From positions 32,064,218 through 32,128,217 of the forward strand of contig NC_134846.1 of NCBI RefSeq assembly GCF_965363235.1: a DNA stretch of 64,000 nucleotides, read 5' to 3'. Of this stretch, positions 19,836 through 53,540 are shown one piece after another (position 1 is the first letter of the stretch; each line of letters opens with the position of its first letter). This DNA is from Mytilus galloprovincialis (taxonomy: Eukaryota > Mollusca > Bivalvia > Mytilida > Mytilidae). A program made the position numbers and the translations under genes. The notes under the pieces were generated by a model, which was given only the letters and a program-made list of their open reading frames with translations, searched no databases and was not told where the DNA came from.

Positions 19836-20000
19836 AGCCCAGGTGGTCGTGTGGTCTAGCGGGACGGCTGCAGTGCAGGCGATTTGGTGTCACGATATCT
19901 CAGTAGCATGGGTTCGAATCCCGGCGAGGGAAGAACAAAAATTTGCGAAAGCAAATTTTACAGATCTAACATTGTTGGGTTGATGTTTAAGACGAGTTAT
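19836..20000 (+). mobile_element. tRNA-derived SINE, copy 2
   Basis: Same unit as 2022-2185 in the opposite orientation: AGCCCAGGTGGTCGTGTGG, A-box-like TGGTCTAGCGG, B-box GGTTCGAATCCC, the AATTTGCGAAAGCAAATT palindrome, then GACGAGTTAT and a TA tail to about 20020. Confidence 0.8.
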
Positions 20001-21199
20001 ATAGTTATATATATATATATACATCAGTGATCGCTGTGGATTGTATACTTGGAATTTATAGTAAATAGCAAGTAACATGAGTAATTTTAAGTATATTTAT
20101 GTTCATTTAATATAAAAAACGCAAAAAATATTTGAAATCAATATAAAACCCCCAAAAACTGGATTTTTGAAAAAAAAAGGGTGTGTGGGGTGTGGTAAAC
20201 AATTTGTCCTGTCAGCCAAGTACCTTCGCTCGCTGGATTAGATAAATCAGTGATTAAACACAGCCACACACATACTGTAAATGTTAAGTGCAATAAATAT
20301 TGATTTGATTTGATCTGATTTATATGAAAGTTTGATCAATGGACGCAAGAAAATCTGAAAGCGTTTTTTTTTTTTTTAAATCTGATCTACCAAAAACGGA
20401 CATGAACTTTGATCTTTTCACCCCAATATAAATATGCGTTTAATTTCTATTGACAATGTATGCCTGACATGAGGATTTAATATTAATTAAAGTTCCTATT
20501 CATCCTGAAAGGATTTGTTACGGACGGACAAACGGACGCACAGGTAAATCGATATATACATGGTATATAAATAGTAATCAATGTGGAGCTTTCTCACTAT
20601 TCTAACAAAACTCTAATAAAAAGGCAGGTGAAACGGTACACAACAAAAAAGTGATGACGTTGCTTAAGATAGTTTTATTTAACTAATAGAGACTATACTG
20701 GTTACTTCATTTTTACCCAGCTCATCAAACATGCAAGAAAGTACAATAAAAATTTATTACAAGAAAGTTGATAAAAATTGGAATATTTACCTGATCATCC
20801 GACTACAATTTCCACATGGTTGCTTTTTTACGGTTTACATATTTATAACACAACTACACGATGTGTACTTAACATCGCTTGAAAACCGTTTGAAGAATGT
20901 GTATATATATATCACTGTTAGTTGTGTGTTATCGATTCAAAGCTCTAGAGAGCAAAACATTATGTTTTATACATGTTATATGGACTAAACTTTAAAATAA
21001 AATAAATTCGAAAGCAAACATTACAATTTATTGTTGAGGGTCGACATGGAAAAATTTATAAATTATCCTTAGATTTAATTCTTTTTATTTAATTGATTCT
21101 GTATCAAATTTATCACAAACTAACTGATCCTAACTTACTTGGTGTGTGAAAGATGGCTTTGTCATTGTAGATTTTAATGTAGTATATAGATTTAGGCTC
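20001..21199. other. AT-rich intergenic stretch
   Basis: No gene. Around 20230-20330 is a fragment ending aataaatattgatttgattt with repeated TTGAT, a tail style seen on some mollusc retroposons. Too little remains to classify. Confidence 0.5.
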
Positions 21200-21631: not shown

Positions 21632-22535
21632 TGATGTTTTAATACAACTCCATATGGAATAGTCATTACTTAATGATATTTCGATATAACACGATATGGA
21701 TTCGTATTGACTTGATATAGTTTTGTCATTACTCAATATGGTTTTGTCATTACTCGATGTGGTTTTAACATTACTTGATGTGTATGTGATTTTACGTAAT
21801 GTAGTTGTTTCATTACATGATTTCGTAATGATGATTTGTCTATTCTTTATATGGTTTTAACATTACGTAAACGATTTTACACTACTTGATGTGTTTAATT
21901 TGTTTCATTATTTTATGTGGTCTTATCATTCTTTGATGTGGTCCTGTCATTCTTTGATGTGGTTATCCCATTACTTGATGAGGTAAAACCACGTGACCAA
22001 TTCGGAAAAATCTGTTCTATTTTGAGATAGATTTCCATGTTGTATATGCCTTAAATACGTGTGGCCATCCATTTAAATAGTGTTCAAATTAAAGTTTGGG
22101 TTACTGTTTGAGTTAAACTTTGAGCTAGTTTTAGAATTCAAGTCATGCTTAGAATTAAAGTTCTAGTTAGCATTGAGTTTCGAGTTGGACTTCGAGTTTG
22201 AGTCATATTTAAACTGTTAAAGGCAGAATTCTAGTTACAACTTTGAATTTGAGTCACTTCTTGAGGTAGAGGTTGAGTAAGATTCGAATTTAAGTCTCAT
22301 TTAGATTAATTAAGATTACGAGTTGAAATTCGAGCTATTTTATATGTCTATTTGAGTTTGTAATTAAATTTTCTATCGCAGAACAAGGGCTTTTGCTCGG
22401 GCTTCAGAAAAGAGGGCTCCGGGATATGCGTACTAAATAAACAATGTTGCAGTATACAAAACGCAACATAAAGTTAGATGTGGTTTGATTACCAATTAGA
22501 CAACCAGAGTTTAAAAGCAGTGGATGTAAGAAACG
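21632..22535 (+). repeat. Foldback element 1, left inverted arm
   Basis: Pairs with 28350-29429. Outer ~450 bases are the ~20-bp CATTACTTGATGTGGTTTT-type units, and 22090-22350 is GAGTT-rich. It lacks the MITE present in the right arm and so preserves its empty site (gttactgtttgagtt context near 22095). Confidence 0.85.
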
Positions 22536-23264
22536 AAAAAAACTAACGGTCTATTTTACAAAAAAAAAAAAAAAAAAAAACAAAAAAACAAATATGACAC
22601 ATGTATACAACGACAACAATTGAACTTCCTGCTCCTGGCTTGGGGCAGGTACATAAGGGAACAGTCATTATTTACCAGCTGGAGGGTTGGGTAATTTATT
22701 TTTTTTGGGGGGGGGGGGGGGTCAAAATATTTTTGATGATCATATTGGGGGGGGGGGGGGGGTCAAAAACATGTTCCAATATTAAATTGGGGGGGGGGGG
22801 GGTCAATTTTTTTCAAACAGTATTTTCAACAACTACAACATTTTATGTTCTCCTTTCTTGACACTTTGGAATTCCTTTTTATATTTGTTATCTTGGTTCA
22901 TATATACACGCTTCGAATTCTAATATTAAATAGGTGCAGATGTCGAGATAATGGGATTTATAGCATCAATGACTAGCACAAGTGGATATACCACATGGGA
23001 AGTTAAATATATACTAGAACACACCCGCGAAATCGCGGGCATTCAGAGTGTATTTGAGAGGATGTAAAGTGTTGTAGGCAGAATTTTGTAAAAGATTTAT
23101 AATGACTTCAGAATTTCAGGAAAAGTATCAAAAGTCAAAGGTACTTGGGGACAGGAAAATGTTTTTTTATTAACCCTCCTCCTTTATTTCCAAAATTCCT
23201 ATTTTTTGTTTTCTATTAATGTCATTATTAACATACATTTAGTGTACATGTATTATGAACATTC

Positions 23265-23522
23265 CAGTCAGGAGCCTGTAATTCAGTGGTTCAGTAATAT
23301 TTGTTTTTCGTTCATTTTTTGTACATAAATAAGGCTGTTAATTTTCTCATTTGAATTGTTTTACATTGTCATTTCGGGGCCTTTTATATCAGACTATGCA
23401 GTATCGGCTTTTGCTTATTGTTGAAGGCCGTAAGGTGACCTTTAAATGTTAATTTGTGTCATTTTGGTCTCTTATGGAGAGCTGTCTCATTGGCATTCAT
23501 AATACCAGATCTTGTTTTTTTG
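23265..23522 (+). repeat. Dispersed repeat family A copy
   Basis: Blocks agtcaggagcctgtaattca, ttgaattgttttacattgtc, ttgttgaaggccgtaaggtg and gctgtctcattggcattc. A near-complete second copy is at 59080-59340. Here it lies between two ~200-base direct repeats of other sequence (23085-23262 and 23522-23705). Confidence 0.75.
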
Positions 23523-23726
23523 TAAAACATTTAGCGACTTGAGAATTTCAGAAAAGGTATCAAAAATCATAGGTAATTTGGGACAGGATAATTGTTTTTC
23601 TAGCCCGGCTCCTCCTTCTTCCACAAAAATTTTTTGTTTGTTTGTTCTCTATTAATTTTAATGACACATGAATAATTTTAGCGCTTATCTGTATATTATG
23701 AACATTCATTAAAGGGGGATCGGGGC

Positions 23727-23874
23727 AGAAGCGGATTTAGGAAGCCCGCCCCCCCCCCCTTTCTGAAAAATAATTGGTTGCTTATATAGGGAATCACTGA
23801 AGCATGACCGGAGCGGACCCCTTCTTAGGCAGTCAACGGGCCCCTGCGTATGAACATTTCTGGATCCGCCACTT
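23727..23874. mobile_element. GGATCC MITE, copy
   Basis: Right end tctggatccgccactt, left end agaagcggatttagg. The middle reads (inverted) as the tatagggaatcactgaagca type shared with copies at 34517, 37047 and 42115. Confidence 0.65.
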
Positions 23875-24165
23875 CGGAGGGGCCCTGATCCCAACATCCC
23901 GGGCTTAAAAACATGAAATCCAGAGGTTCTGAATTTATTATACAAATTAAATATCTCGACATCCCGAAATTCGAAAAAAGAAATCCCGGATCCCGAAATG
24001 GTCAATCCTGAAATTTCGATCTTAAAAACACCCGCTCCAGACGTCCTGAAAGTGTATTTTCTTTTTACAGTCAATTCTCAGTTTAATAATTGATCCACAG
24101 CGGTCATTGATATATTATTCAGACCCTCCCTTTTAAATAAACCCTGTGACTGCCGTGGATAGTAA

Positions 24166-24560
24166 ACTTGAAAATGATATCAGACAGAAAATACACTTTA
24201 TTCGTAGTATATGTATTTGTTTCAAAGTAAAAAGAAAAACGCAAACCGGAGGTCTAATCTGACTTAAATTTCGTCCAATGACGGATATAAGACAGAAAAT
24301 ACACTGTATTCGTAGTATTAATGTATGTTCAAAGTATACAGAAAAACGCAAACTTGAAAATGATATCAGACAGAAAATACACTTTATTCGTAGTATATGT
24401 ATTTGTTTCAAAGTAAAAAGAAAACGCAAACCGGAGGTCTAATCTGACTTAAATTTCGTCCAAAGACGGATATAAGACAGAAAATACACTGTATTCGTAG
24501 TATTAATGTCTGTTCAAAGTATACAGAAAAACGCAAACCGGAAGTCTAATCTGACTTAAA
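24166..24560. repeat. Higher-order tandem repeat, 186-bp period
   Basis: A 186-bp unit starting acttgaaaatgatatcagac (24166, 24352) is repeated twice plus part of a third. Each unit is two diverged ~92-bp halves sharing cagaaaatacact, attcgtagtat and cagaaaaacgcaaa. Confidence 0.85.
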
Positions 24561-25061
24561 ATTTCACCCAATGACGGAAACATATCCGGACGTCTTTTTT
24601 CTCGTTTTTCACCCAAAATAACTCAATCTGAATAATCATATGAATGGATGACAAATGCGATTATGCACTGAACCCATAGGACACAGAGGCATGATGATTA
24701 ATTTATTGTGGAAAGAAGAGAAGCGACACCCAAAATGAGGTCTTCTCGTTTAATAGTATAGATAAAATTGGTTTGACAAATATCTGATTTATTTATGACT
24801 GTGGTTTAAACTGCATCAAAAATAAATACTGACATCTGATTAGTATCAGATATTAAAGTGTGATACAACCAAGCCATAATCTTTGCCAAATACTACATTT
24901 AATCTGAATGTCTCACCCTTTTAATACATAATAGAGCATGAAATAGTGACCTATTCCAGCTGCCCATTCCTACAAATCAATTACATAGTAAGTGGCCTCT
25001 TTGGGAGATAATATTGACTTTTAGCAATTTGTTTATCAATACAGTCTTATTTTAATTAAAG

Positions 25062-25393
25062 ATGGATAGAGAAAAGAAGGAAAATGCTAAAATATTTCAA
25101 CGTAAGAATTATAAAGAAAAACGATCTTTAAAAAAAAAAACTTCAAACAAAATATTGTGAAAATAATATTCGGATTTCTCTTCAAACATGCTCTACAATT
25201 TTTGAATAGACTTTTACCAGATTTTTACCAGAGTGCATGGAAATATATGAGTGATCCTCATATATTTAAAAAGTCTTGTGTTACTGAAGCTACCAGACAA
25301 TGGGATGTACAATCAAGAATGAACAAACTTGAAGGTTCAGTGAACTTTATCCTAGGGACCAACCCAAATGCAGTTGGTAGTTTTATACATTGA
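25062..25393 (+). other. Unrecognised coding-like remnant
   Basis: An ATG at 25062 opens a very basic peptide (MDREKKENAKIFQRKNY...) that stops at about 25154. A second frame, 25157-25393, without an ATG, reads VKIIFGFLFKHALQFLN to NPNAVGSFIH. Composition is protein-like, but I recognise no family. It lies inside the Harbinger-like element and might be a relic of element coding sequence or a captured exon. Low confidence. Confidence 0.25.
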
Positions 25394-25440
25394 GATATTT
25401 TTAATTATGGACAAAATAGAATTCTTGATAACAACATTAA

Positions 25441-26166
25441 ACTAGAGGCTCTCAAGAGCCTGTGTCGCTCACCTGATTCTATTTGGGATTTTGAAATAAT
25501 ATTAAAAAATGTAAAAAATTGTAACAGATACTTATAATGATGTTATAGTCCAAATTTGGTTTAATATTGTTATGTTTGGTTTCATTTCATTCAGTAGTTC
25601 CTATAGTGTACCATGTTAAACTAAGCCCCAGTCTGGCGGCCATCTTGGATAATGGATCGGGTACAAAGTAACAACACTTGGTCAGCACCTCATAAGGAAC
25701 ACTCATGCCATGTTTGGTTTCATTCCATTCAGTGGTACTCTAAAAGAAGTCATTTGTATGCATTTCCCATAGGTTCCTATGTTAAAATAGTCCCCTGCTG
25801 GCGGCCATCTTGGATGATGGATTGGATACAAAGTAATAACACTTGATCAGCACCTCATAAGGAACACTGATGCAATGTTTGGTTTCATTCCATTCAGTGG
25901 TTCTCTAAAAGAAGTCATTTGTATGCATTTCCCATAGGTTCCTATGTTAAACTAAGTCCCCCGCTGGCGGCCATCTTGGATGATGGATCGGCTACAAAGT
26001 AACAACTCTTGGTCAGCACCTCATAAGGAACATTAATGCCATGGTTGGTTTCATTCCATTCAGTGGTTCTCGAGGAGAAGTTCAAAATGTAAAATGTTAA
26101 CGACAACGACGGACGCCAAGTGATGAGAAAAGATCACTTGGCCCTGCCGGCCAGGTGAGCTAAAAA
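25441..26166 (+). mobile_element. GCTCACCT-ended element, copy 1
   Basis: Starts gaggctctcaagagcctgtg, a self-complementary word, then tcgctcacct; ends caggtgagctaaaaa, so GCTCACCT and AGGTGAGC are inverted. Inside is a ~165-bp tandem unit (ggcggccatcttgga at 25635, 25800, 25966). The right end has gacgccaagtgatgagaaaa, shared with the copy at 35420-36696. Confidence 0.7.
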
Positions 26167-26964
26167 TATACTGTTAATTAAATGGGTTAAATCATTGATA
26201 AATAATATAACCAGATGGGGGGAGTCAAAGTTTTTTGTTAACTACATTTGGGGGGGGGGGTCATTTTTAAATTTACAATATAACTGGGGGGTTCATTTTT
26301 ATTTTGTTCATTTCACAAAAAAAATCCCCCCCCCCCCCGCTGGTAAATAATGACTGTTCCCTAAAGAAAGTGCACTTGGCGGAGTTTAACATGTTTGTGA
26401 GCGAACATTGGACTGTAACAGTAGTGTAACAGCACTATACGAGAAAAAAATGTAACTAGACAAACTGATGCCCCCGCACTCCACTCATTTAACCGCTTAT
26501 ATCCCAAAAAGGACAAAAGTTCAATTTTTCTCTCAAAAGAGGAAATATAATAAAAAGAAAAACCCTGACCACATGCACACTTTCAATACATGTACAAACA
26601 GCTAGCAGAGTGATAAATTCCTAGCATTCAAACTGTAGGAGGAGTTATCTGGAAACGCCTTACTTAAGCATGTAAATTTCCCAAAAATGACAGTTCAACT
26701 TTCTCCCAAAAGAGCACATATTAATAAAAATTAAACCCTTACCACATGCAGCACACCTTCAATATATGTACAAACAGACAGTAAAAAGAGAACTTCCTAA
26801 GATTCAAACTGTTGGAGGAGTTATGCGGAATAGCTATATACCCATAATGGGACTGAAAGACGTACAAATGGACAGAGGTTAAACACTTTCCCCCTTAACT
26901 TTCAGTTGCGGTAAAGTTGCGGTGGCTTAAACATGTTAAACAACAGTTGCAATTGGTAATTTAA

Positions 26965-27243
26965 GGTGGCACCTAACACTACAGGGAGATAACTCTGTAA
27001 AATCAGCCAAACGTTTTAATAACGTTGTGTTGTAAATTTTAAGGGAATATTAAGCTTCTCTCCGATCAAAATTGGTGTTTGTCAATCTGCTATATAACCA
27101 GTGTAATTTTTCTGATAAAATGGTTGGTTCAAAGTTTTTGAAATTTATATATTTTGGTTAAAGGGTCAAAGTAAATACTTTGTCAAAATTTTATGAAAAT
27201 TAAACGAGCCAAATTAATTTTAGTGAAAGTGTTAGGTACCACC
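26965..27243. mobile_element. TTAA-flanked MITE, 279 bp
   Basis: Inverted ends GGTGGCACCTAACACT and (from the right) GGTGGTACCTAACACT, each flanked by TTAA (26961-26964, 27244-27247). Related in size class and end style to 16443-17281, but a different family. Confidence 0.8.
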
Positions 27244-27247
27244 TTAA

Positions 27248-27480
27248 ATCCATCGGGGTGATTTCGGGTTCCCCAGAAGGGTAAGGAGATTCTGCTCAAC
27301 GTGTGACACCCGTCTTGTTATGCGAGAAATTACAAACCGAGTGATTTTGTTTTATTTAGAAGTTCACATTCGAGTAAAAGATGAAGGTATTATGGTTACG
27401 ACAACTGGAACATGTTCGTCGTCACATGTGAAACAGATATTCCAAAGAGTTTATTTTTTCAATTAGTGCGAGGTAGATCA
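27248..27480 (+). repeat. Dispersed repeat family B, partial
   Basis: Blocks ggggtgatttcgggttcccc, gtgacacccgtct and acatgttcgtcgtcacatgt are diverged versions of the long copy at 13285-13790. Confidence 0.6.
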
Positions 27481-28349
27481 GAGAATTCAATTGATTAAAA
27501 GTAAAAAAATTGATATTCGTATATATGTTCAATTGATCATTCACGCTAAAATAAATTCGGAGAATTCTTATTTTATAGTATTGATGCTTCGTCGCTTAGT
27601 CCGAGCCCCCTTCCCCGATTTTCCTGTGACTTAAGTGTGAGTTGATTTAAAGTGTCTCATTTGTTAACAAAGAAAGTATTAGTCTTTTTATTTGTGTCGA
27701 GCCTGCGACATCAATGTAGCGGCAGTGAGACACAACAACGTCGTCGAAATGGCGTTATTTCAGGAAAACCATACAGTTTTGTTCTAGTTAAATAAAACTG
27801 AATTAAACTGTTTTGACATGATCAATTTATTACCTCCATGAAAAGTTTCAAAACTTGTATAGGAGTTTTTTTCTCAATATCAAGAAAAAGCATCTACAGA
27901 AAAACACTTTTTAAATTTTTTTTTGACCGATGAATGTACCGCCAATCAACATTACGCTTTTACACCGAAAGCAGCAATATCGGGCGGGACACAGCGTTCC
28001 GTGGAATATTTTACAAATTTAATATAATACTGCTTCTACTAGTATTTGAGAACTTCGGATCAAATAATAGGACTAACTGGTTTGGGGATTTCCCAATTAT
28101 GTCCGAAATACTGTAAATTTTTAAAGATTTTATTTTTTCATTATTATCTGCCGTTCCCCTTTTTCATACCAAATAACTCTGAACAACCACTCGATCTTTA
28201 ATTTGAACTTTAACTTTGGCGATACCCATACAAAGCATATTAAACAAACGACATATTGAAATCTGTTAAAAAATAGATTTTTTTCACATAGTTCATGGTG
28301 GCCTTTTGTAGATGACTATACGGAGTGTTGAAGGCTGTACGGTTGCCTA

Positions 28350-29537
28350 TATATGATTTCTTATATCCACTGCATTTAAACTCTGGTGGATAGTTGTCTC
28401 AATGGCAATCACACCCGATTTAACTTTATTTCAACTCCGATGTTGCGTTTTGTATACTGCAACATTGTTTATTTAGTACGCATATCCCGGAGCCCTCTTT
28501 TCGGACGCCCGAGCAAAAGCCCTTGTTCCGCGATAGAAAATTTAATTACAAACTCAAAAAGACATATAAAATAGCTCGAATTTCAACTCGCAATCTTAAT
28601 TAATCTAAATGAGACTTAAATTCGAATCTTACTCAACCTCTACCTCAAGAAGTGACTCAAATTCAAAGTTGTAACTAGAATTCTGCTTTTAACAGTTTAA
28701 ATGTGACTCAAACTCGAAGTCCAACTCGAAACTCAATGCTAACTAGAACTTTAATTCTAATCATGACTTGAATTCGAAAACTAACTCAAAGTTAACTCAA
28801 ACAGTAACCCCAGTGGCGGATCCAGCCATTTTAAAAAGGGGGGTTCCCAACCCAGAGTAAAGGGTGGGTTCCAACTATATGCTCCCATTCAAATGCATTG
28901 ATCGTCCAAAAAAAAGGGGGGTTTCAACCCCCGGAACCCCCCTCCCCCCCCCCTGGATCCGCTACTGAACCCAAACTTTAATTTGAACACTATTTAGATG
29001 GATGGCCACACGCATTTAAGGCACATACAACATGGAAATCTATCTCAAAATAGAACAGGCTTTTCCGAATTGGTCACGTGGTTTTACCTCATCAAGTAAT
29101 GGGATAACCACATCAAAGAATGACAGGACCACATCAAAGAATGACAAGACCACATCAAATAATGAAACAAATCATCATTACGAAATAACAAAACCACATC
29201 ATGTAATGAAACAACTACATTACGTAAAATCACGTACACATCAAGTAATGTTAAAACCACATTGACTAATGACACTACCATATTAAATAATGGTGAAACC
29301 ACATCGGGTAATGACAAAACCATATTGAGTAATGACAAAACTATATCAAGTCGATACGTAACCGTATCGTGTTATATCGAAATATCATGAAGTAATGACT
29401 ATTCCATATGGAGTTGTATTAAAACATCATTACTACTGTCAAAACCATATTTAGTAAAGACAAAATATCATTAAGTAATAATAAAACAACATAAAGTTAT
29501 ATCAGAGTTCGACATAAGACAGCTGTGGTGTTCCATA
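28350..29537 (-). repeat. Foldback element 1, right inverted arm
   Basis: Inverted match of 21632-22535 plus ~108 extra terminal bases. Contains at least one more ~20-bp unit than the left arm and a 157-bp MITE (28811-28967). Ends at 29537 with gctgtggtgttccata. Confidence 0.85.
28811..28967. mobile_element. GGATCC MITE with clean 5-bp target duplication
   Basis: Ends CAGTGGCGGATCC and GGATCCGCTACTG. Target duplication AACCC at 28806-28810 and 28968-28972. The opposite arm of foldback element 1 has the same site uninterrupted (cagtaacccaaactt, read inverted near 22095), so the boundaries are certain. CAG...CTG ends with a 5-bp duplication match the element at 14198-15276 in style (hAT5-like by inference). 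Confidence 0.85.
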
Positions 29538-36300: not shown

Positions 36301-39300
36301 AGATAATAACCAAAACGGCAAAATTTCCAATTCAGGGACAGCAACCCAACAACCGGTTGTCCGATTCATCTGAAAGTTTCAGAACAGATATATCTTCACT
36401 TGATCAACAATTTAACCGCGTGTCAGATTTGCTCTAAATGCTTTGGTTACAGAGTTATAAGCCAAAATCTACATTTTACCCCTATGTTCTATTTTTAGCC
36501 ATCTTGGTTTGTTGGCCGGGTCACCGGACACACTTTTTAAACTAGATACCCAAATGATGATTGTGGCCAAGTATGGTTAGATTTGACTGAGTAGTTTCAG
36601 AGGAGAAGATTTTTGTAAAAGTTAACGACGAGGACGGACGGACGACGGACGCCAAGTGATGAGAAAAGCTCACTTAAGGGCTAGGTGAGCTAAAAATGAT
36701 AAAATAATAACCTTACAAAACCAACAACAGCAAAAAAATATTAGAAAAAACTTAGTTTCAATGGTGATTGTTATTTGAGTCTATTTCTTTTCACTAAGTC
36801 TACTCTACTCTTGTACATGAATTGAGCCATTGTGGGTTATGGCACATAAGTAGTTACCCTGTTGGGAGTGTAGCGGATACATGGTTATGTAATCGTATTA
36901 ACAGTTGTCAGCTTTTGTCAAGTAAAGCACACCGTTTGCTGCACAAGACTTCCAAACGACATCATTATGATATTTACTCATATAAACGCTCAACCTGAAT
37001 AATCCAGTCGTTATATTTCACTCACTTCGATCGATACATCAACCAAAGGCGTATCCGAGGGGGGGGGGGGGGCTTGGGGGCCCGGCCCCCCTGTCGTGGA
37101 AAAAAAATGGTTGATTATATAGGGAATCATTGAAGCACGACTGGAGCTGCCCCCCTTAGGTCAGTCAGAGGCCCCCCCCCCTTTATAGGAAAAGTTCTGG
37201 ATCCGCCACTGTGACAACATGACCGAAAGGGGGCGCTGTAATTAATCGAGTTAAGAAGTTAACGCATTCGTCACAACTCGGTCAATTCCGTAATTCCATC
37301 TGATAGATGGAGAGAAACGGAGTCACCCGAGATTGACGATGGTTAAGAAACGCTATATATTTATCTACATACAACTGATGCCCTAAGTCCATGATCACAA
37401 ATGAATCTACTTTTGGTACACAATATTCTTACCTTAACGTTCTTTCTTCCAATAGTATATCAGATACGTTATTAGCGTTCAGAGGCGTTCTATACATTTT
37501 TACTGCAACTTCCTGAAAATTATCTTCGTCGTCTTTTAAACGGGACATATATACATCGGCAAAACTTCCGCAGCCAATCAGATCGTTCCCATTCCATGTT
37601 ATATCTTGAAATCGGGAATTTTCTTTCCGTAGATTTTGAACGTAAAACATGTCAAGTTCGCCTTGCAATCTCAGACATTCGACAATTATTTGTGGATACA
37701 ATTCCTCTAGATTTTTCTTTGATCGAGACAGATCGGTATTCAAATTTTCAAATAGTTGTCTATCTGACTGTAATATGTTTGGTATTTTTCCCTCCAGTAC
37801 CGTTATACTAGAATCGAATCTTTGTAAAAATAAGTTCACATTTTGTTCTAATTTTCCATTATCCCGAAGCAATTCAACAAACAGTTTTGATGCCTCTTTC
37901 ATTTTGTGTTGACAATTGTCCTTTTTATAAGATTTGAATAAACTTTTCACCGATTTAGAGGTCACATCTAGTGTTTGATCAAGACAAACGATAGTTCCAA
38001 GACTTTTTCTATTCATAACTTTATTTCTAGAAGCGCTGGAGAATAACTGTTGAATCGATTTCGTAGGTGCCTTTACTGAGGTATGAAAGTTATTCACTGC
38101 TTTCATATCTCCTCCCAGCATTACCCCTGAAATCAAATATAAACCTTTATAAATACGAATATATTTGTATAATTATAAGTAAAAAGATATAGGAAGATGT
38201 GGTGTGAGTGCCAATGAGACAACTCTCCATCCAAATAACAATTTATAAAAGTAAACCATTATAGGTCAATGTACGGCCTTCAACACGGAGCCTTGGCTCA
38301 CCGAACAACAAGCAAGAAAGTGTCCCAAAATTACTAGTGAAAAAAACATTCAAACGGGAAAACCATGCATATCAAATAATAATAAAAAAAACCCACAATA
38401 AACAAAAAGATAAAAGATATACTATCTCCCAAAGCCCGAAACACCATTTTATATTGCTGTATTGTGTCCTGCTGAAAGTCAAGTGGCAAATAGTTCAAGC
38501 TTACTCAAGACGAGACTGTTTTATCGCAAGTTTGATAGAGCTGAGGTTACACCACTGATTTGGCTGCTCCATCTATTTGTCAATTTTGCCTACACGTGAT
38601 CACAAAACTTTAAACAGTTTTAGTTTTCTTAATATTCTTATCAAAATGAAAATAAGGAGGTATTGTATAATTGCCAATGAGCCAATTATCAACAACTGAA
38701 GATAACAAGGGCGAAGATGAAATCAATTGTGGAGTCGCCGTATGGTCTTCAAAATTGAGAAAAATCCATAACGTATACGTATTAAGCTATAAAAATCCAT
38801 GGCATGCATTTCGGTGATGATTAGTCCTGAAACATGTTAAGCATAAGTACTCATACATATCAAAATACCTTTTCCCTCTTTTCACCTACCTTCCAGTTCT
38901 TTAATCCTGTCTTCCATTAACTCAAAATCTTGTCGAAGTTGTTCACTAATCTTTTCCTTAACACTTTTAACAATGCCTTCTGATCGTTCCCAAAAATCAA
39001 TCTGTGATTTCAATTTCTGTATGATCTGTTCTGATGCCTCCTCTGCGACCTTTCGCCAATTACCAAGAACATCCGGGCACTCCTCTTTGCTCCATTCGTC
39101 AATTCCCCCATCTAACCATGAAGATCTTAAAAATCCTTGGACTCTACTATTTAAAAGCTTTGCTTCGTTTTTAAGCTGGAGACGTAGATTTGTAATTGCT
39201 GTGTGTGTGTTAGTTTCTAGAAGCTGAATTCCAGTTTTCAAATTTTCTTGCATTTTCCGTTTTTCTTCCAGACCTTTCGAATCCATATGTCTAGCAAGTT

Positions 39301-42300
39301 TTAAGGAATATAGAACTCTTTTGATCACTTGTGATAAAAAACTGAAAGATAAAATGTTACATGTCTTATGTAATAATATTTAACGGAATGCAATTGTCCA
39401 TTGAAAATATAAAGTTTTCGATTGAGGTAATTTTAGTCGTTTCACTCGAAGTCTAATCGCCATGTTGGAGGTCAAATTGCACAAGTTCGAGGTCAAATTG
39501 CACAAGTACGTTCAAAATCAACCAACAAATTCAACTTGTTATCATTCGACCTTTGGAAAAGTTGTTTTTTTTATAGCCTTGTTCAACTGATAAAATTCAA
39601 ATCCATTTTAACTCGGCGGAATTGTGTGCTCATATGAGGATAACGAAATCAGAGATCTATATTCTAAATAGATTGAAGATTTGCATAACTCATCACAATG
39701 ATTTAGTAAGAATTTATATTAGATCTAATTGTACTACACATATTAACATAGTAACAGGTTGTTGATTTTTGTTGTCAAGTGTCCAATTGTATCATTTTTT
39801 TATGCCCAATTTATGGGCATTATGTTTTCTGGTTTGTGCGTCTGTGCTTCCGTCGTACCGTCCGTTCGTCCGTTCGTCCGACTGTCCCGCTTCAGGTTAA
39901 AGTTTTTGGTCGAGGTAGTTTTTGATGAAGTTGAAGTCCAATCAACTTGAAACTTAGTACAAATGTTCCTATGATACGATCTTTCTTAATTTAATGCCAA
40001 ATTAGAGATTTCCCCCCATTTTGACGGACCATTGAGCATAGAGCGAATGGGGCATCCGTGTACTAGGGACACATTCTTGTTTATAGCTATGATGCATTAC
40101 ATAAAATACACAAGTCGGTAATTCTATAAAATTAAGACAATTAACTTTAAACATTTTTTTTCAAAACCAAGTATAGGCGAAAAGTCATGACTTAAGACCA
40201 ATATTAGTCGTAAGTTTTTTTGTGAAACCGACCCCAGCTTTTTCCAAAAGCCCATTGGATCTTTTGACTACAGAAACACAGCGCCATGAGTGTACACTGT
40301 TTTAAAAGATAACTATTGCAGTACGGGATTCTTACCAATAATGTATATTAAAACCATTTTTCAAACATGATGGCATGAATTTTACAAGTCCATCGGTTAT
40401 AGCTGTGAAGTCTTCTGGTTCGTCGCCATGTCTTGATACCTTTAATGACTAGATTTGGAAAATGGAAAGAGAAAATTATTCTGATTATTCAACCATTGTT
40501 TTTTTTTATCAAATTTCAACCTATAGCTTATATATGCGTTTCACTTCTTCTCTTACAGTTTCCTATATCCATAATACTCGTAAATAATTATTATCGTATT
40601 AATATAAAAGAACTATAAAATGGTTTTACATTAGTCATTTTTGGGGCTCTATATAGCTTGCTGTTCGGTATGAGCAACGGGTCCGTGTTGAAGGCCATAC
40701 TTTGACCTACTAGTATAATGGTTTACTTTTACAAATTGTGACTTGGATGGAGAGTTGTCTCATTGGCACTCATACCACAGCTTCTTATATCAATCACTCT
40801 GTTTATTTCATAATAGGAATCATATATGTAAAGTACCTTTAAATTTATAAGCTGCTTACTAAAAATGTATATCGTCCGTATTATACGGTACCCTTAACAA
40901 ATAAATGAGGGTCAGGATATATAGGGATCCCTCATTGTCTGCCTCATTTCTTTATTTTTCATGTCTGTGTTCTCTATTCTTACCATTTTTTACCCTTTTC
41001 TCTATATTTGAGCACCCAATTATTCTCTATTCTCTTTTTATAGCCATTTATCAGGCATTTTTTATTTCTCTTAACTCCATTCATACCTCATAGACAACAT
41101 AATTAACAATAACGGCGAAGCGGATCGTTTACATTTTTTAAAACTTTTTGAAAAATCTTCGAAAAGGGCAAATTTGACTTCCGCAATATACAATGTACCT
41201 CTGTTGCCGAAATGTAAAATAGCTGGTCCTTCTGTATTCCTGGAAATAATTTCTTTAGTTGTGACAAGGTTGTCTTTGTAAGATCAGATTTATCAATTTC
41301 CGGTACAGTGTCCCATTTGTTGAAGACAAACATAGCAGCATCTGTTGAAAATTCTTGGTCACAAATAGACGATGTCGAGCGCAAAAACTGGCGAACCTGT
41401 AAATTTAAAAAATGGTCAAATATCTGTTTCAATATTGTGTTAACCATCTATATCGCTTTAATCATACCCGAAAAACTATCGCAAACAATCGACAGACTAT
41501 ATGCAAGTGAGAAGTTGAATTAGAATGAAATTCAAAACAGTGTAGCTGTGGCCATTGATTGACACATTAAAATCATCCATTGACTGGGACAATTTAGGTG
41601 AATTTTTGTATGTAACGACCAATGCTCACTATGTACTTTTTAAAGACACTTAAACTATGGGGTCACCAAAGGTTCTCAACACCTAAATAAAGTAATTCGA
41701 AAAATTAATCAGAAATAACACGATATTTTGATTTATATCAATTATATAAATCAAAACACAAAGGTTATTCCTGATTAATTTTTCGAATTATTTTATAATT
41801 AAAGGCGTTAAGAAACCTTTGGTGACCCCACAGTTTAAATGTCTATCGTAGGTACGTCGTGAACAGTGGTCGTTACAGACAAACGTTCACGTAAATTATC
41901 CCAGTCAATGGATGATTTTAATGTGTCAATCAATGGCCACAGCTACACTGTTTTGAATTTCATTCTATTACGCGCGCACATGTTTGTGAAATGGCTTTAA
42001 TTCAATGGAGGAGTCGATTTCAAAATATTGGGACACAAAATACAACTGTGTAACTTTTGTAGTCTTACTTGCTGTAGTATCCACTACATTTTAAAATCTA
42101 AATTATACACACTCATTGGCGGATCCAGGAGGCCCCTTATACATATGTGAATCATTTGTTTGATTATATAGGGAAGCACGACTGGAGTGAGCGCACAACT
42201 CCCCCTTTATGATAAGTTCTGGATCCGCCACTGACAATCCGCCTAATCTTATTATGAACAAAAGCATCTATTTCTAAGCGGTTACACCACTAAATACTTC

Positions 42301-45300: not shown

Positions 45301-46311
45301 TTCATGCACATTTTGGACGAGATTACTCATTTGATTAAATAACAATTAAGTTCTTCTGTTAAAGATACAGGTAATGAAAGACTTACATATACAATGTTTG
45401 TGTTAGCAGAATGGTATTTTTTTGAAGCATGTGGAGCAGGATCAGCTTACCCTTCTGTAACACATTAGATCATCCCCAGTTTTTAATGGGGTTAATATTG
45501 CTTAGTCTTTAGTTGTCTATGTAGTGTCTTGTGTACTATAATTTGTCTGTTTGACTTTTTTAACCATGGCGTTGTCAGTTTTTTTTTTCGATCTAGGAGT
45601 TTGAATATCTCTCTGGTATCTTTCGCCTCTCCTTTGACTACACAAGCAAATTACAAGGTGCGTCGAAAAAAAAAATACTCTGAAATCGTAAATAAGAAAA
45701 CATAAAAATATTTTTTTTTTTAAACGAGAATTGAAATTTCAAAATAATAAGGCAAAACCACGTGTCTACTTCATGAATGAAAGAAAACATCTACTTTGAC
45801 CATGATAACAGTATGCATCATGAATCTGATGTTCAGTAGTTGTCGTTTGTTGATGTGGTTTATAAGTGTTTCTCGTTTTATATATAGATTAGACCGTTGG
45901 TTTTCCCGTTTGAATGGATTTACACAAGTCATTTTGGAGCCCTTTACGCTTGTTGTTCAGTGTGAGCCAAATTGAATGTTCCGTGTGAAGACCGTACACG
46001 TACTTTGACCTATAATGGTTTACTTTTACATATTATGACTTGTATGGAGAGTTGTCTCATTGGCACTCATACCACACCCTCTTATATCTATCTATACTAA
46101 CCTTGTCATTGTCCTGCGTTATGTTTTGTAATCTCCAGTATTCGACAACACGGTTCATAGCGTCGTTTTTATTTTTTATTCCTTTTCGATCTATACCAAA
46201 GTCCTTCATTACCTGAAAGACTGTACTCATGTCGGGTATTTTAAAAATGTCCTCAACACTGGAAAGACGTCTGCTGTAACGGTCCCTTAATTGATCTTCC
46301 ATATCTTCCAT
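33315..46311 (-). CDS. Dynamin-type GTPase / protein kinase (DSTYK-like)
   Basis: Ten coding exons, all with consensus splice sites: 46102-46311, 44994-45201, 43318-43622, 42497-42634, 41199-41396, 40336-40448, 38890-39341, 37433-38126, 35050-35344, 33315-33734. They sum to 3033 nt in one frame, 1010 residues plus stop. Residues 1-136 are charged and helical. The GTPase domain has P-loop GETNSGKSS (140-148), PTT (165-167), DTPG (248-251) and NKWD (313-316). A long helical region (about 390-700, coiled-coil-like) follows. The kinase domain has IGCGSFADVY (725-734), VAVK with Lys ~751, HRDLKLAN (862-869), DVG at 882-884 in place of DFG, and GSPIYMAPE. The order and length match vertebrate DSTYK ('dusty', about 930 residues), a regulator of FGF/ERK signalling and cell death, but here the GTPase motifs are canonical. 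Membership in a bivalve-expanded DSTYK-like group is inference. An upstream noncoding exon is likely: an acceptor-like site lies near 46338. Confidence 0.9.
34517..34667. mobile_element. GGATCC MITE in kinase-gene intron 9
   Basis: Ends aggcggatccagg and ctggatccgccactg; interior ggttgattatatagggaatc. GATCCA occurs just outside both ends and may be the target duplication. Confidence 0.75.
35420..36696 (+). mobile_element. GCTCACCT-ended element, copy 2
   Basis: Starts gaggctcttaagagcttgtg (self-complementary) then tcgctcacctt; ends ctaggtgagctaaaaa. Two diverged ~500-base internal copies begin ggaccaactgaccattttgg (35700) and gggtcaactgaccattttgg (36198). Lies in intron 8 of the kinase gene. 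Confidence 0.7.
37047..37211. mobile_element. GGATCC MITE in kinase-gene intron 8
   Basis: Right end ctggatccgccactg; left end aggcgtatccgagg, slightly mutated; interior tatagggaatcattgaagca. Carries G- and C-runs near each end. Confidence 0.75.
38189..38320 (-). repeat. Family A2 repeat fragment
   Basis: Reads gtgccaatgagacaactctc, then aatgtacggccttcaacacg and agccttggctcaccgaac. It is the inverse of the copies at 40620-40795 and 45815-46088. Another fragment follows at 38645-38770. Confidence 0.65.
39795..40085 (+). mobile_element. ATGCCCC-type MITE, copy 2
   Basis: Starts tatgcccaatttatgggcat and ends ggggcatccgtgtactaggg plus acacattcttgttt. It includes ttcaggttaaagtttttggt as in 16925-17200, and a CGTCCGTTCGTCCG run. 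Lies in intron 6 of the kinase gene. Confidence 0.7.
40620..40795 (+). repeat. Family A2 repeat, unoccupied copy
   Basis: Contains tggagagttgtctcattggc followed by actcataccacagcttctt. This is the intact form of the site occupied by foldback element 2 at 48065-52860. Confidence 0.75.
41521..41967. mobile_element. Snapback hairpin MITE, 447 bp
   Basis: The first ~75 bases (tagaatgaaattcaaaacag...) are nearly perfectly inverted in the last ~75, and complementarity continues inward (ggggtcaccaaaggtt with aacctttggtgacccc; gaaaaattaatcag with ctgattaatttttc) to a short centre near 41745. TA at both ends is consistent with a TA duplication. Lies in intron 4 of the kinase gene. Confidence 0.85.
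42115..42233. mobile_element. GGATCC MITE in kinase-gene intron 4
   Basis: Ends ttggcggatccagg and ctggatccgccactg; interior gattatatagggaagcacga. Shorter than its relatives. Confidence 0.75.
42275..42455. repeat. Short degenerate tandem repeat
   Basis: Four variants of ccggctacaccactaaata spaced about 50-65 bases apart (near 42280, 42340, 42390, 42437). Confidence 0.55.
43085..43220 (+). repeat. SINE-like fragment with ATCA tail
   Basis: Contains ggtggttttctccgggcaat and aatgtggcgcttaaaagtgg, ending in repeated aatcaatcaagc. I recognise this as a block common in bivalve genomes; family not named. Confidence 0.5.
43789..43990. repeat. Minisatellite, ~62-bp unit
   Basis: gtatcagacc starts at 43789, 43852, 43913 and about 43977, giving units of 61-64 bases with ctattataaacatatcgaaa and gttacataacg in each. 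Confidence 0.85.
44163..44905. mobile_element. Long-TIR MITE in kinase-gene intron 2
   Basis: About 85 bases at each end are inverted copies (ctccatatgg... ttaattaccagaccaa at left; ggtctggtaatcaaataatc ... accatgaggaag at right). Inner parts share gattatgtgattatattggc inverted. AT-rich with no frame. Confidence 0.75.
45425..45625 (-). repeat. Family B repeat fragment
   Basis: Inverse of ggggtgatctaaggtgctac... and of the agggacattcaaactaac end. Lies in intron 1 of the kinase gene. Confidence 0.6.
45815..46088 (+). repeat. Family A2 repeat, second unoccupied copy
   Basis: Blocks cagtagttgtcgtttgttga, agaccgttggttttcccgtt and ggagagttgtctcattggca. Matches 47830-48064 block for block and shows the uninterrupted site. 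Confidence 0.75.
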
Positions 46312-47829: not shown

Positions 47830-48064
47830 GTCTGCAATACATTCAGTAGTTGTCGTTTGTTGATGTTGTTCATAAGTGTTTCTCGTGTCTCGTTTTTTAT
47901 ATAGATTAGACCGTTGGGTTTCCCGTTTGAATGGTTTAACAAATGTCTTTTTGTGACCCTTTATAGCTTGCTGTTCAATGTGAGCCAAGACTCTGTGTTG
48001 AAGACTGTACCTTGACAAATAATGGTTTACTTTACAAATGTTGACTTGGAAGTAGAGTTGTCTC
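47830..48064 (+). repeat. Family A2 repeat, left part of a split copy
   Basis: Runs to ggaagtagagttgtctc, where foldback element 2 begins. The repeat resumes at 52861 with tgtctcattggcactcatac and ends near 52905. Confidence 0.8.
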
Positions 48065-48775
48065 TATGGAACGCCACAGCTGCCTTATGATAACAACAAC
48101 CATATCATTACGGGTAAAGATATATATCATGAAGCAAATGTTCTATACTATAACAACATTTGACTATAATACTCTGTCAATTTGCTATATTACTAAGATC
48201 AATTTATATACTATGAAGACACTTTGATACAACATGGAGCTACCTTTTCATACTATTCTGTCATTTCACTAAACTATTAAGTGATATTGTTTTGTCATAA
48301 ATGTACATTTTATACTATAAAGACATCTGAATATAACATTAAGCAACCTTTTCATACTATTTTGTCACCACAGTATATTATAACGATAAATTTGTATACT
48401 ATACAATCATCTCGATACAACATGGAACAATTTTGTGACGTCATACTATTATGTCATATAACTATCTTATAAAGACATATTTTAATATCAAGCTAACCGT
48501 TCTTATATCACGAGGTGTCATCTATATACCAGTAGACTATTTGATTACACTGTAAGAGCATTTCATCATACCATAATACCATTTCACCATATCATAAGAC
48601 CATTTCATCATAACACAATACCATTTCACCATATCATAAGACAAATCTATAAATAGCGGCGAAATTTCCAGCGAAATCCATCCGCAAGATCGATTGTAAT
48701 GGGAAAAAAATCCATGAAGGAAATCTTTTTTACGAGCCTTAGGGAATCGCTTTCAAGATAGATGAATTTATCGAC
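48065..48775 (+). repeat. Foldback element 2, left inverted arm
   Basis: Inverse of 52098-52860 with small indels. Inner end tgaatttatcgac. TATAAATAG at 48648-48656 on the plus strand. Confidence 0.9.
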
Positions 48776-49387
48776 AGAAGGGGATGCCGCTGGGGTTCTT
48801 GTGCGCTATCCTTTTCGTATATGAATGAATGAATATTTCAATATTAAAGTGCAACCTGAATTATAACAAACAAAGACATTCATATATATACAGGTAATTT
48901 TCAGCCAGTCAAATAGGCTTATGATGCACTGCATTGTGTATCATTATTAAAAATAAAATAAATTATAAATAAAGAAATATATATAGTTCGTATAATTAAG
49001 ATTTTTAAAATGTAAAACATTTAAAAAATTGCGTATGTGAAAGTGTAACTTTTTTCCATTTTGATTTGGTTTCATCTGGTGTGTTAAAAAAAATTGACTA
49101 CAAAAATGTCGAAGAGGAAAAATTTGTGGCTAGAAACACAGCTATGAACAACCAGACTTTCGTCTGTGAAAAAAAAAAATACCGGGCTCTTTATTTAACA
49201 AGCAATGGGAACAATTTTGTATCATATCATGTATTTCTGATATAATCTACTACCTATTAACATATTCAGCATGTATTTCTTGTATAAAACATGCTAATAT
49301 TTAAACCACGATAACTTACTCCTGTTCCGATATGAATGTAATATGTGTTACTGGACCATAAACACTTGTTCTTCACTTTAATCCATT

Positions 49388-50043
49388 TTTTATACGTCCG
49401 CCTAAATTTTGACGGGACGTATTATGGTATACAAATGTCCGCCGTCCGTCTGTCTATCTGTCCGGAGTCCACATGTCACACCGTAACTTGAGAACCGCTT
49501 ATCCAAATTTCATGACACTTAACATAGTTGTTTCTTATGATGGTCATACAATCTGTACATATACGTTTTGGTGAAAATAGGATTTAAACTTTTTGAGTTA
49601 CGGGACTTAACGTTAACTAAAACAGGGATGTGTTTTTTTTCACATGTCGCGCTGTATCTCAAAAACGATTTATGATTATTGCTTAAATCTTTACACATTT
49701 CTTAGTTATATTTATCCAAATATTTGAAAACTTTTTGGTGATGGTTCAAAATTTTATTTTAGAGTTATTGCCTGAGTTTTTGGCAAAAAGGGAAGGGGCA
49801 CATGTCGCACCGTATCTCAAAAACCATTAATGATTATTGCTTTAAACTTTACAACTTTACACATTTCTTAGTTATATTAATCTAAAGATCTGTATAGTTT
49901 TTGGTGATGATTCAAAATTAATTTTGGTAAAAAAAGGTTTTTTTCACATGTAGCGCCGTATCTCAGAAACTATTTATATTTATTGCATATAACTTCACAC
50001 ACAAGACGAAGGGCGTATCATACGCTCATGGTGCAGCTGTTTA
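49388..50043 (+). mobile_element. MITE with three internal ~150-bp units
   Basis: Starts ttttttatacgtccgcct and ends gggcgtatcatacgctcatg plus gtgcagctgttt. Inside, cacatgtcgcgctgtatctc, cacatgtcgcaccgtatctc and cacatgtagcgccgtatctc begin successive units. Nested in foldback element 2. Confidence 0.65.
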
Positions 50044-50836
50044 TTTTCAATTGTGAACAATCCAGCCTAAGACTTGAACTTCAACGGGATATTTTATAAG
50101 TATTTCGCATCGATGTCATTATATTTTTGATTAATTTTCATTTTGTTTCGTTTATTTCTGTTTTTTTCAATCGTTTCTATGTCGTATCGCACTTTATAGT
50201 CACCCAATAGTATCGTACCTGTCTGATATTGGTACGGGGATTATCGTTCGGTTTGAGTACGGAAATCAGAGATAAACTACTTCTGTTTTGAACACCTTCA
50301 AATAATAATATATCAAAACATAAATGTTTTCAACCGCGCTGAAGTACGTCCATTATTCATTTTTCATTATTCAAAATTCAATAATGAATAATGAAATAGT
50401 TCACTATTCACTATTCAATGTTAAGTGATGAATAATGAAATATAGAATGATAAATGTTTCATTATTCAAGTTGAGGCGGTGAATAGTGAAATAGAAATTT
50501 AAAAAATTGACTGTGACACTATAGCTATATCCCGTATTTCTTAATACCGTATCGTCTTTTTTGTGTTATCGAACAAATATTCAAAGAAATATCAGAAAAA
50601 ATAAAATGAAAACACACTTTAAATATTAATATAAAAAAGAAGATGTGGTATGATTGCCAATGAGACAACTATCCACAAAAGACCAAAATGAAACAGACAT
50701 TAACAACTAAGTTGATTTATTTCTCTAGGTTCGGAAGATTAACTAGTGGGTTTTCCTAACTATATTTAACAGAAATTCCTCGGTTCAATGTATGGACGAC
50801 CTGAATAACAAAACATATATATATATATATATATAT

Positions 50837-50947
50837 ACAACTCGTCTAAACATCAACCCAACAATGTTAGATCTGTAAATTTGCTTTCGCAAATTTTTGG
50901 TTCTTCCCTCGCCGGGATTCGAACCCATGCTACTGTGATATCGTGAC
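50837..50947 (-). mobile_element. tRNA-derived SINE, copy 3 (head lost)
   Basis: Minus-strand B-box GGTTCGAATCCC, the AATTTGCGAAAGCAAATT palindrome and ACGAGTTG tail are present; the A-box half is replaced by a second TA run. TA runs flank both sides. Confidence 0.8.
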
Positions 50948-51930
50948 ATATATATATATATATAAATTTGAATACTCTACGTTGTCTTTTTTATTTCACT
51001 GGACCTTTGCTATTCTGCATCCTCTGATTATAGATATAACAAACCGATTGTGCAGCAATGACAATTAGAAGGAGTTACGGAGGACCCAAAACACGCGTGA
51101 AAATTAAGAAATAGCCATCTTTGAATAATGAAATGGATATTTTGAATAATGGAATGGACTGCTGTGACCCTTCAGTCCCTAATTACAGACTGATTATATA
51201 CCTTATACCTCATTTGAAAGCTTATGTAGAGAGCAACAAAAGGTATATAGTCAATATGTTCCACAACGCATATTAGAGGAGTATCGAAGGACCTACATAT
51301 CGGAATACGGAATACGCGTGAACATTAAGAAATTATCTTATTTTGAATAATGAAATGGACTGCTGCAACCCGTCAGCCCCTAATTAAAGAACAGTTTATA
51401 CGCCAAATTAAAAGCTTATTGATAGAGAAATAAACTGAGTATAAACAGTATGTGCCGCAATGACCATTAGAGGGGTAGCAGAGGACCTAAATGCCAAAAT
51501 ACGCGTGAAATCTAAGAAACAGCCAATTTTGAATAATGAAATGGATATTTTGAATAATGGAATGGACTGCTGTGACCCTTTAGCCCTTATTTATAGATAA
51601 ACCGTATACCTCATTCGAAAGCTTATGTAGAGAGGAACAAAAGGTATATAGTCAATATGTTATAAATCGTAAAATTTATATAGAAAAGTAAAGATGTATC
51701 ATCTTTCAGCATTGATTTGTTAACTTCGTTTAAAAGTTCATTATGATTTTAACAATAATATCATTTTAAACATATGCCGATCTGGCTCTCAGCTATTAGT
51801 TAATAAAAACATTCAAGAATACGGCTAAATTGTAATGGGTACGGGATACGGGTCACACATTTTGCAAAATGATTTGCAAAGATGTGCTTTAAGTTAACCA
51901 TCTAAAACAAACAGGTTGATGTCATGATAA

Positions 51931-52116
51931 CTAAAATTTGGGGAAAAGAATATAGACCATCTTTTTGTTTTTGTTTTGTATGTTATTTAGTTTTTGTTTA
52001 TTTATTTTTATGAGGTATACCAATCTGTATGTGTCGCCTATATTGTCGACACCAAGTTTTTGCAACTCCGCATCGCTGAGGGGAAATGCAACATTAGAGT
52101 CAATAAATTCATTCAT
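51931..52116 (-). CDS. Possible first exon of an element-encoded protein
   Basis: ATG at 52116 opens MNEFIDSNVAFPLSDAELQ, then KLGVDNIGDTYRL before a GTATACC donor-like site; later residues are low-complexity Lys/Asn. The words LQKLGV-IGDTYRL resemble the end of a SAM-like (sterile alpha motif) domain. The start lies in the right arm of foldback element 2, about 105 bases after a TATAAATAG box. No second exon recognised. This may be the remnant start of the element's own gene. Confidence 0.35.
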   Translation of the reverse strand: MNEFIDSNVAFPLSDAELQKLGVDNIGDTYRLVYLIKINKQKLNNIQNKNKKMVYILFPKF

Positions 52117-52860
52117 CTTGAAAGGGATTCCCTAAGGCCCACAAAAAGATTTCCTTTACGGACTTTTTTCTCTCATTACAATCGATGTTGCGGATGAATT
52201 TCGCGGGGAATTTTCGCCGCTATTTATAGATTTGTCTTATGGTATGATGAAATATGGTCTTGTGTTATGGTGAAATGATAAAACGGCCTTATGATATGCA
52301 TGGTGAAATGGTCTTATGATATGGTGAAATGGTCTTATGATATGGTGAAAAAGTATTATGGTATGACGAAATGGTCTTATAGTGTAATCAAATAGTCTAC
52401 TGGTATATAGATGACACTTCGTAATATAAGAACTCTTAGCTTGATATCAAAATATGTCTTTATAAGATAGTTATATGACATAATAGTATGACAAAATTGT
52501 TCCATGTTGTATCGAGATGATTGTATAGTATACAAAGTTATCGTTATAATATACTGTGGTGACAAAATAGTATGAAAAGGTTGCTTAATGTTATATTCAG
52601 ATATCTTTATAGTATAAAATGTATCTTTATGACATAGCAATATCACATAATAGTATAGTTAAATGACAAATCAGTATGAAAATGTAGCTTCATGTTATAT
52701 CAAATTGTCTTCATAGTATATAAATTGATCTTAGTGATATAGCAAATTGACAGAGTATTATAGTCAAATGTTGTTATAGAATAGAACATTTGCTTCATGA
52801 TATATCTTTACCCGTTTTGATATGGTTATTGTTATCATAAGGCAGCTGTGGCGTTCCATA
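52098..52860 (-). repeat. Foldback element 2, right inverted arm
   Basis: Inverse of 48065-48775. The repeat words of the outer part differ in number between arms, giving the ~50-base length difference. Confidence 0.9.
52220..52228 (-). promoter_or_regulatory. TATA box in foldback arm
   Basis: TATAAATAG on the minus strand, ~105 bases upstream of the ATG at 52116. The mirror copy is at 48648-48656 on the plus strand, facing inward. Conserved in both arms. Confidence 0.5.
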
Positions 52861-52984
52861 TGTCTCATTGGCACTCATACCACATCTTCTTATATCTATT
52901 AATATTGAACAGTCTGTGGGGCTATGAAGACCGGTATTTTATGTATAGTTTGAAAACACTTACGATTCCAAGCAATACCATTGA

Positions 52985-53540
52985 GAATAGAAATGGGGAA
53001 TGTGTCAAAGCCTGAGACAACAACCCGACCAAACAACAGAACACACCCGAAGGATACTAATGGGTCTTCAACACAGCGAGAAAACCCCGCACCCGGAGGC
53101 GGGCTTCAGCTGGCTCCTAAACAAAAAGTGAACTAGTTTAGTGATAATGGCCGTGATACTTAACTCCGAAATATATAACTGAACTAAAATCACAATCATA
53201 CAGTCAAGACTAACAAAGGCCAGAGGCTACTGACTTGGGACAGACACAAAAATGCAGCAGGGTTAAACATGTTTTGTGAGATCTCATCCCTCCCCATATA
53301 CCTCTAGCAAATGTAGAAAAAAACACACAGCAATACGCACAAATAAACTCAGTTTAAAAGTAATCCGAGTCCGATATCAGAATAGGTTACAAAAAAACCT
53401 AAACATAATGACAATGATACATAAATTAACAAAGGACTACTAGCAGTTACTAACATGCCAGCTTCAGACCTCAATTAAATTGATTGAAAGATAATGTCTT
53501 CTTCATATGAATATCAATCACAATCCCGCCCGTTACATGC
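52985..53540 (+). repeat. Dispersed repeat family C, long copy
   Basis: Starts aaatggggaatgtgtcaaag, passes through acaacaacccgaccaaacaa, aaaggccagaggctactgac and ttaaacatgttttgtgagat. A second copy is at 62750-63062; a third is split around 22657-26361. Confidence 0.75.

Follow-up and report, generated by a model that had tools for sequence, protein, structure and literature searches.

Inverted repeats flanking several kilobases of DNA can mark a mobile element or can arise by local rearrangement, and the pair at positions 48065-52860 of the window (the whole 64,000-nucleotide stretch of Mytilus galloprovincialis DNA analysed here) raises the question of which of these it is and, if an element, to which group of transposons it belongs. 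The initial annotation had described a complete foldback-like element with an empty site in the same window, and the exact ends, the duplicated target and the empty-site alignments bear out this description. The segment is a complete transposon insertion of about 4.8 kb, whose inverted termini are, as had been proposed, exact: the 20-mer TATGGAACGCCACAGCTGCC occupies 48065-48084 on the plus strand and 52841-52860 on the minus strand. The hexanucleotide TGTCTC, already noticed at both edges, is duplicated at 48059-48064 and 52861-52866. When the two flanks were joined, they aligned through the junction to three unbroken copies of the target repeat in the window, each with a single TGTCTC, at 45832-46091 (plus strand, 82%), 40619-40791 (plus strand, 81%) and 38182-38365 (minus strand, 81%). 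The first two include the intact A2 copies that had been put forward as empty sites (46025-46080 and 40741-40790), and the third was absent from the initial annotation. Because the joined flanks align straight across the junction to three unbroken repeat copies, the inverted repeat did not arise by chance but marks an insertion. One related place, on contig C13, would speak for a local inverted duplication or an assembly artefact, being palindromic with 100% identity between its arms over 1,816 bp. However, the arms at 48065-52860 differ by about 7%, the target is broken exactly at the duplication and many other loci behave likewise, and for this locus that explanation is already refuted.

The left arm (approximately 48065-48775, plus strand) contains an array with a 21-bp period at about 48158-48642, and the right arm (approximately 52099-52860, minus strand) contains one at about 52281-52750. 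In BLAST the arms aligned to each other over 569 bp at 92.8% identity and over an overlapping 240 bp at 82.9%, which, together with the arrays, confirms the earlier view of internally repetitive arms of about 700 bases. Thus, the element has the foldback architecture of long inverted arms that are tandemly repeated within and variable in length. A TATA-like motif, CTATAAATAGCGGCG, faces inward at the inner edge of the left arm (48647-48661, plus strand) and also in the right arm (52215-52229, minus strand); within 3 mismatches it was present in 8 of 10 elements, with TTAATA in some of them. The interior (48776-52098) gave no Pfam match when 48800-52101 was scanned in six frames. It harbours a piece of the target repeat family (50612-50670, minus strand) and, at 50816-50948, a nested dispersed repeat that recurs in the window at 2006-2133 and 19888-20021. 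This nested repeat is young (its copies are 95-98% identical) and lies beside a TA run in the element; it holds a word that we take to be a tRNA-like B-box, and it is perhaps a SINE. ARAGORN called no tRNA at the nested repeat or at the insertion site, and there was no Rfam match over 48000-53000.

The genome-wide searches covered the 1.38-Gb assembly in 331 contigs. The exact 20-mer terminus occurred 55 times and the reversed pattern not once; when up to 3 mismatches were allowed, the counts were at least 1,720 and 7. In the window, the first 18 bases of the terminus were found 3 times at up to 3 mismatches, a number reached in none of 100 shuffles. The target duplication was evaluated in 29 pairs of facing ends, a count that leaves out 8 further listed pairs as well as the C13 pair, whose ends lie inside the palindrome and lack outer bases. 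An exact 6-bp duplication was present in 14 pairs, and the sequences of these 14 duplications differ from one another; the remaining 15 had no exact duplication. In six of the latter, 5 of 6 bases were duplicated (three of these six have identical flanks), and in nine only 0 to 4 of 6 bases agreed. Two of these nine pairs (L060-L063) have inverted flanks, and others may combine ends that belong to different copies. No pair had an exact duplication of any other length from 3 to 12 bp, and in the control the mismatched left and right flanks agreed in 1 of 812 cases. Eight full copies with an exact duplication ranged in length from 1.3 to 13.8 kb. The element is thus a member of a large mobile family with many dispersed copies. 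The initial annotation had named the lack of a second locus and a variable duplication length as findings that would count against it. Neither was borne out: we observed 55 exact ends, and the 14 exact duplications were all 6 bp long. Such a number of long dispersed inverted repeats also bears on the rearrangement of the mussel genome.

Two other kinds of locus were recorded in the course of these searches. The C13 palindrome (L044, G000:C13:28586000-28593700) surrounds an element, and its arms are 99.7% identical over another 1,566 bp beyond the stretch of complete identity; it points either to inverted duplication in the very recent past or to an error of assembly. Copies with the terminus TATGGAACGCCATAGCTGCC (L060-L063, L072 and others) include several of about 3.35 kb with other interiors. 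In two examined TATGGAACGCCATAGCTGCC pairs the flanking sequence is inverted, as if they were nested in a larger inverted structure, so these two are not simple insertions. The even length of this group had suggested it as a candidate for the autonomous partner, which we rejected: the 2.35-kb middle of L072 has no frame longer than 116 aa.

The duplication length and the terminal bases allowed us to consider the superfamily. In the excerpts available of PMC10045372, TA..TA termini are present in every complete IS3EU family and 6-bp duplications are usual, with GingerRoot placed in the IS3EU lineage. The IS3EU elements of rust fungi, as excerpted from PMC12730594, have TAYGG..CCRTA ends, terminal inverted repeats (TIRs) longer than 30 bp and 6-bp duplications. 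The mussel element carries TATGG..CCATA at both ends, its exact duplications are 6 bp, and its arms of about 700 bp exceed the 30 bp given for the rust-fungus members. We therefore regard it as probably a non-autonomous foldback-type DNA transposon of the IS3EU/GingerRoot superfamily, with a probability of roughly 75%. Neither a transposase in the interiors scanned nor an autonomous copy came to light, so this assignment is drawn entirely from the ends and the duplication. The earlier remark that a 6-bp duplication with these ends fits none of the familiar common superfamilies needs correcting, in that a described group, IS3EU/GingerRoot, does have such a duplication. Among the matches listed, no paper links IS3EU to a foldback structure. 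These matches come mostly from open literature outside Repbase, and an already catalogued family is possible. The sole match listed for IS3EU together with foldback is a paper on oyster satellites, which, in the part available, cites Tetris and labels two satellites IS3EU. If the element does belong to IS3EU, foldback architecture evolves repeatedly, having so far been tied to the P (Galileo) and Mutator (Tm1) transposases.

Those two superfamilies offer parallels for the arms. The arms of Galileo and Tm1 are likewise long, variable and repeated internally (PMC3573991 and PMC3169594, as excerpted), and a foldback of the P superfamily or a Mutator-like one would account for this architecture. 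However, Galileo copies are bounded by 7-bp sequences (PMC3573991) and the Tm1 duplications are 8-10 bp in 45 of 53 cases (PMC3169594), whereas the 14 exact ones here are 6 bp. By duplication length this origin is disfavoured already, and we consider it the most improbable of the alternative superfamilies. The likeness to Foldback/Galileo drawn in the initial annotation thus holds for the architecture and fails for the superfamily, Galileo belonging to the P superfamily with its 7-bp duplications (PMC3573991). Nearly as improbable is another group with a duplication of this length, either Dada (6-7 bp) or the remnant of a Polinton (6 bp). Where Dada has definable ends it is inserted in genes for small RNAs, and terminal inverted repeats are absent from its U6 and U1 families. 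By contrast, the element here has inverted ends, sequence varies among the 14 duplications, and neither a tRNA nor an Rfam match is present at the site. Polintons carry polymerase, capsid and integrase genes and their ends begin with AG; no such Pfam match was found in the scanned interiors, and the ends here begin with TA.

The initial annotation had suggested looking for a long relative with a transposase. Longer copies do exist, up to 13.8 kb, but the scanned interiors contain no recognisable transposase. These six-frame Pfam scans comprised 48800-52101 of the window, the middle 4.8 kb of a 7.3-kb copy, 8.5 kb of the longest copy (13.8 kb in all) and 22801-27799 of a second foldback in the window; the few matches, all of other kinds, were weak and did not reach their cut-offs. 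Nor did eight longer frames, taken from the 7.3-, 13.8- and 6.0-kb copies, yield a transposase. Viral contigs gave 0 matches. As a possible coding remnant we considered, and rejected, a 33-aa open stretch that lies behind the right-arm TATA-like motif (minus strand, 52116 down to 52018). It had 42 matches in the genome at E values up to 10, with open frames of 30-89 aa, and no match in Pfam or PDB. When the 12 other distinct copies with at least 80 aligned bases were compared with the window copy, changes at codon positions 1/2/3 numbered 64/34/45 with 16 indel columns, and because there is no third-position excess, coding is unsupported.

Frames with an integrase core are numerous in the genome. 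With the IS481 model 65 of 2,265 candidates were scored, many of them in long frames as in retroelements, and with the rva_4 model 150 of 394 candidates were scored. When distances to the 245 listed ends (of a total of at least 1,720) were considered, 1 of these 65 and 150 places came within 20 kb, against about 1.5 expected by chance; it was an rva_4 fragment 3.2 kb outside the C13 palindrome. The best IS481-model match, L059 (G000:C2:37766000-37771500), has an open 356-aa frame with an integrase core and, by eye, an HHCC-like pattern upstream. It was rejected as a partner, having no TATGGAACGCC end in 5.5 kb at up to 2 mismatches, and could be a transposase of Ginger type or else a domesticated gene. 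In addition, rva_4 integrase-core frames, mostly of about 436 aa, form nine facing pairs that all span 13.3-13.9 kb (in G000, C1:105984419-105997985, C3:95786237-95799611, C3:37033467-37047045, C3:9676723-9690465, C7:45159916-45173210, C7:51844549-51858455, C10:3153130-3166703, C11:27453703-27467316 and C11:65001695-65015287); these may perhaps represent a large element whose inverted arms each carry a transposase gene. That no transposase among the integrase-core matches listed is tied to the ends would agree with a non-autonomous element of an undescribed superfamily, resembling IS3EU by chance in its TA ends and 6-bp duplication. This we consider unlikely, although less so than the P, Mutator, Dada or Polinton origins, as the element agrees with what is published for IS3EU in its duplication length as well as in its five terminal bases (PMC10045372 and PMC12730594, as excerpted).

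The arms consist of arrays in which a degenerate 21-bp unit is repeated, regularised to 63 bp in some copies (17.3 copies in one), and the arrays reach about 1.1-1.2 kb. In ten elements, the self-match at lag 21 was 0.37-0.52 in all 20 arms and at most 0.34 in 9 of the 10 middles, the tenth being that of a 1.3-kb element that is almost wholly arm. In shuffled arms the highest value at a lag of any size was 0.33-0.38, so the weakest arms barely exceed this control. Under a criterion set after the data had been seen, the strongest lag between 8 and 130 was a multiple of 21, with a lag-21 value of at least 0.36, in 47 of 57 distinct ends; two of the ten ends that failed were without a trace of the 21-bp period. 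Within the window, 6 of 212 overlapping segments passed the lag-21/42 threshold, and all six lie in the arms of the two foldbacks. TATA occurs mainly at one phase from the terminus, which is weak evidence because the outer 150 bp are homologous. Homogenisation of the arms within an element is not claimed, since the two arms of an element are not in every case each other's closest match. The 21-bp period may simply have been inherited by related arms.

The second foldback, at 21632-29537, bears on this point. Its left arm (21632-22533, plus strand) lacks the terminus, and its right arm (28357-29537, minus strand) includes a 21-bp array at 29086-29351 and ends with TATGGAACACCACAGCTGTC at 29518-29537, which is the terminus of the first element with two changes. 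The two elements match over the terminal 25 bp (92%) and beyond that only in short pieces with E values of 0.007 or weaker; the arms of the second are unalignable to those of the first, though they too have the 21-bp period. Its family is also large, with 728 first-look candidates of which 40 were scored, and of three of its places in the pair test (C2:73769242, C3:18965127 and C1:70275887) two have an exact 6-bp duplication and one has none. The two arm types are either diverged relatives that have kept the spacing or have gained it separately, and both origins of the common period suggest, short of proof, that arm spacing matters. Spacing that is kept without sequence gives a direct and testable idea of how foldback arms function.

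The following scheme could account for these features. An integrase-like (DDE) transposase from another element would bind the TATGG..CCATA ends and, acting in trans, cut there and move the element, which would be joined across staggered cuts 6 bp apart. The 21-bp arrays, with a unit of about two helix turns, would present a series of protein sites along a single face of the DNA. This idea follows by analogy from Galileo, where tandem repeats in the long TIRs hold extra binding sites for the THAP domain of the transposase (PMC3688188, as excerpted), and the arms here may likewise hold helically phased protein sites. Because the 21-bp period is common to two families whose shared sequence is limited to the terminal 25 bp, we tentatively propose, with the odds somewhat against us, that foldback arms arose in a further superfamily, IS3EU, and that what is constrained in them is the 21-bp spacing (two helical turns) and not the sequence. 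If true, the arm would be a phased platform for the assembly of the transposase or a cofactor, which would explain the recurrence of foldback arms in unrelated transposons.

Compared with known systems, always as these are represented in the excerpts available, the mussel element resembles IS3EU in its 6-bp duplications, TA..TA ends and TIRs longer than 30 bp (PMC10045372, PMC12730594). It differs in having no recognisable transposase in the interiors scanned and in its arms of about 700 bp built of 21-bp arrays, which were found in no IS3EU account among the matches listed. Galileo has similarly long and variable TIRs with internal tandem repeats (PMC3688188, PMC3573991), but in addition to 7-bp duplications and a P-type transposase it has longer repeats, which in the subfamily described measure about 210 bp against 21 bp here (PMC3573991). 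Tm1 of root-knot nematodes is a precedent for foldback arms in a named superfamily (Mutator/Foldback); the two arms of an element are on average 93% identical and it, too, has no clear target consensus, whereas it has a Phantom-like transposase and duplications of 8-10 bp (PMC3169594). Finally, Tetris, a foldback of Drosophila virilis, is also apparently non-autonomous and has modular arms with tandem repeats, but these repeats are of about 220 bp and seeded satellite arrays (PMC4079207), whereas the mussel arrays were seen to extend to about 1.1-1.2 kb.
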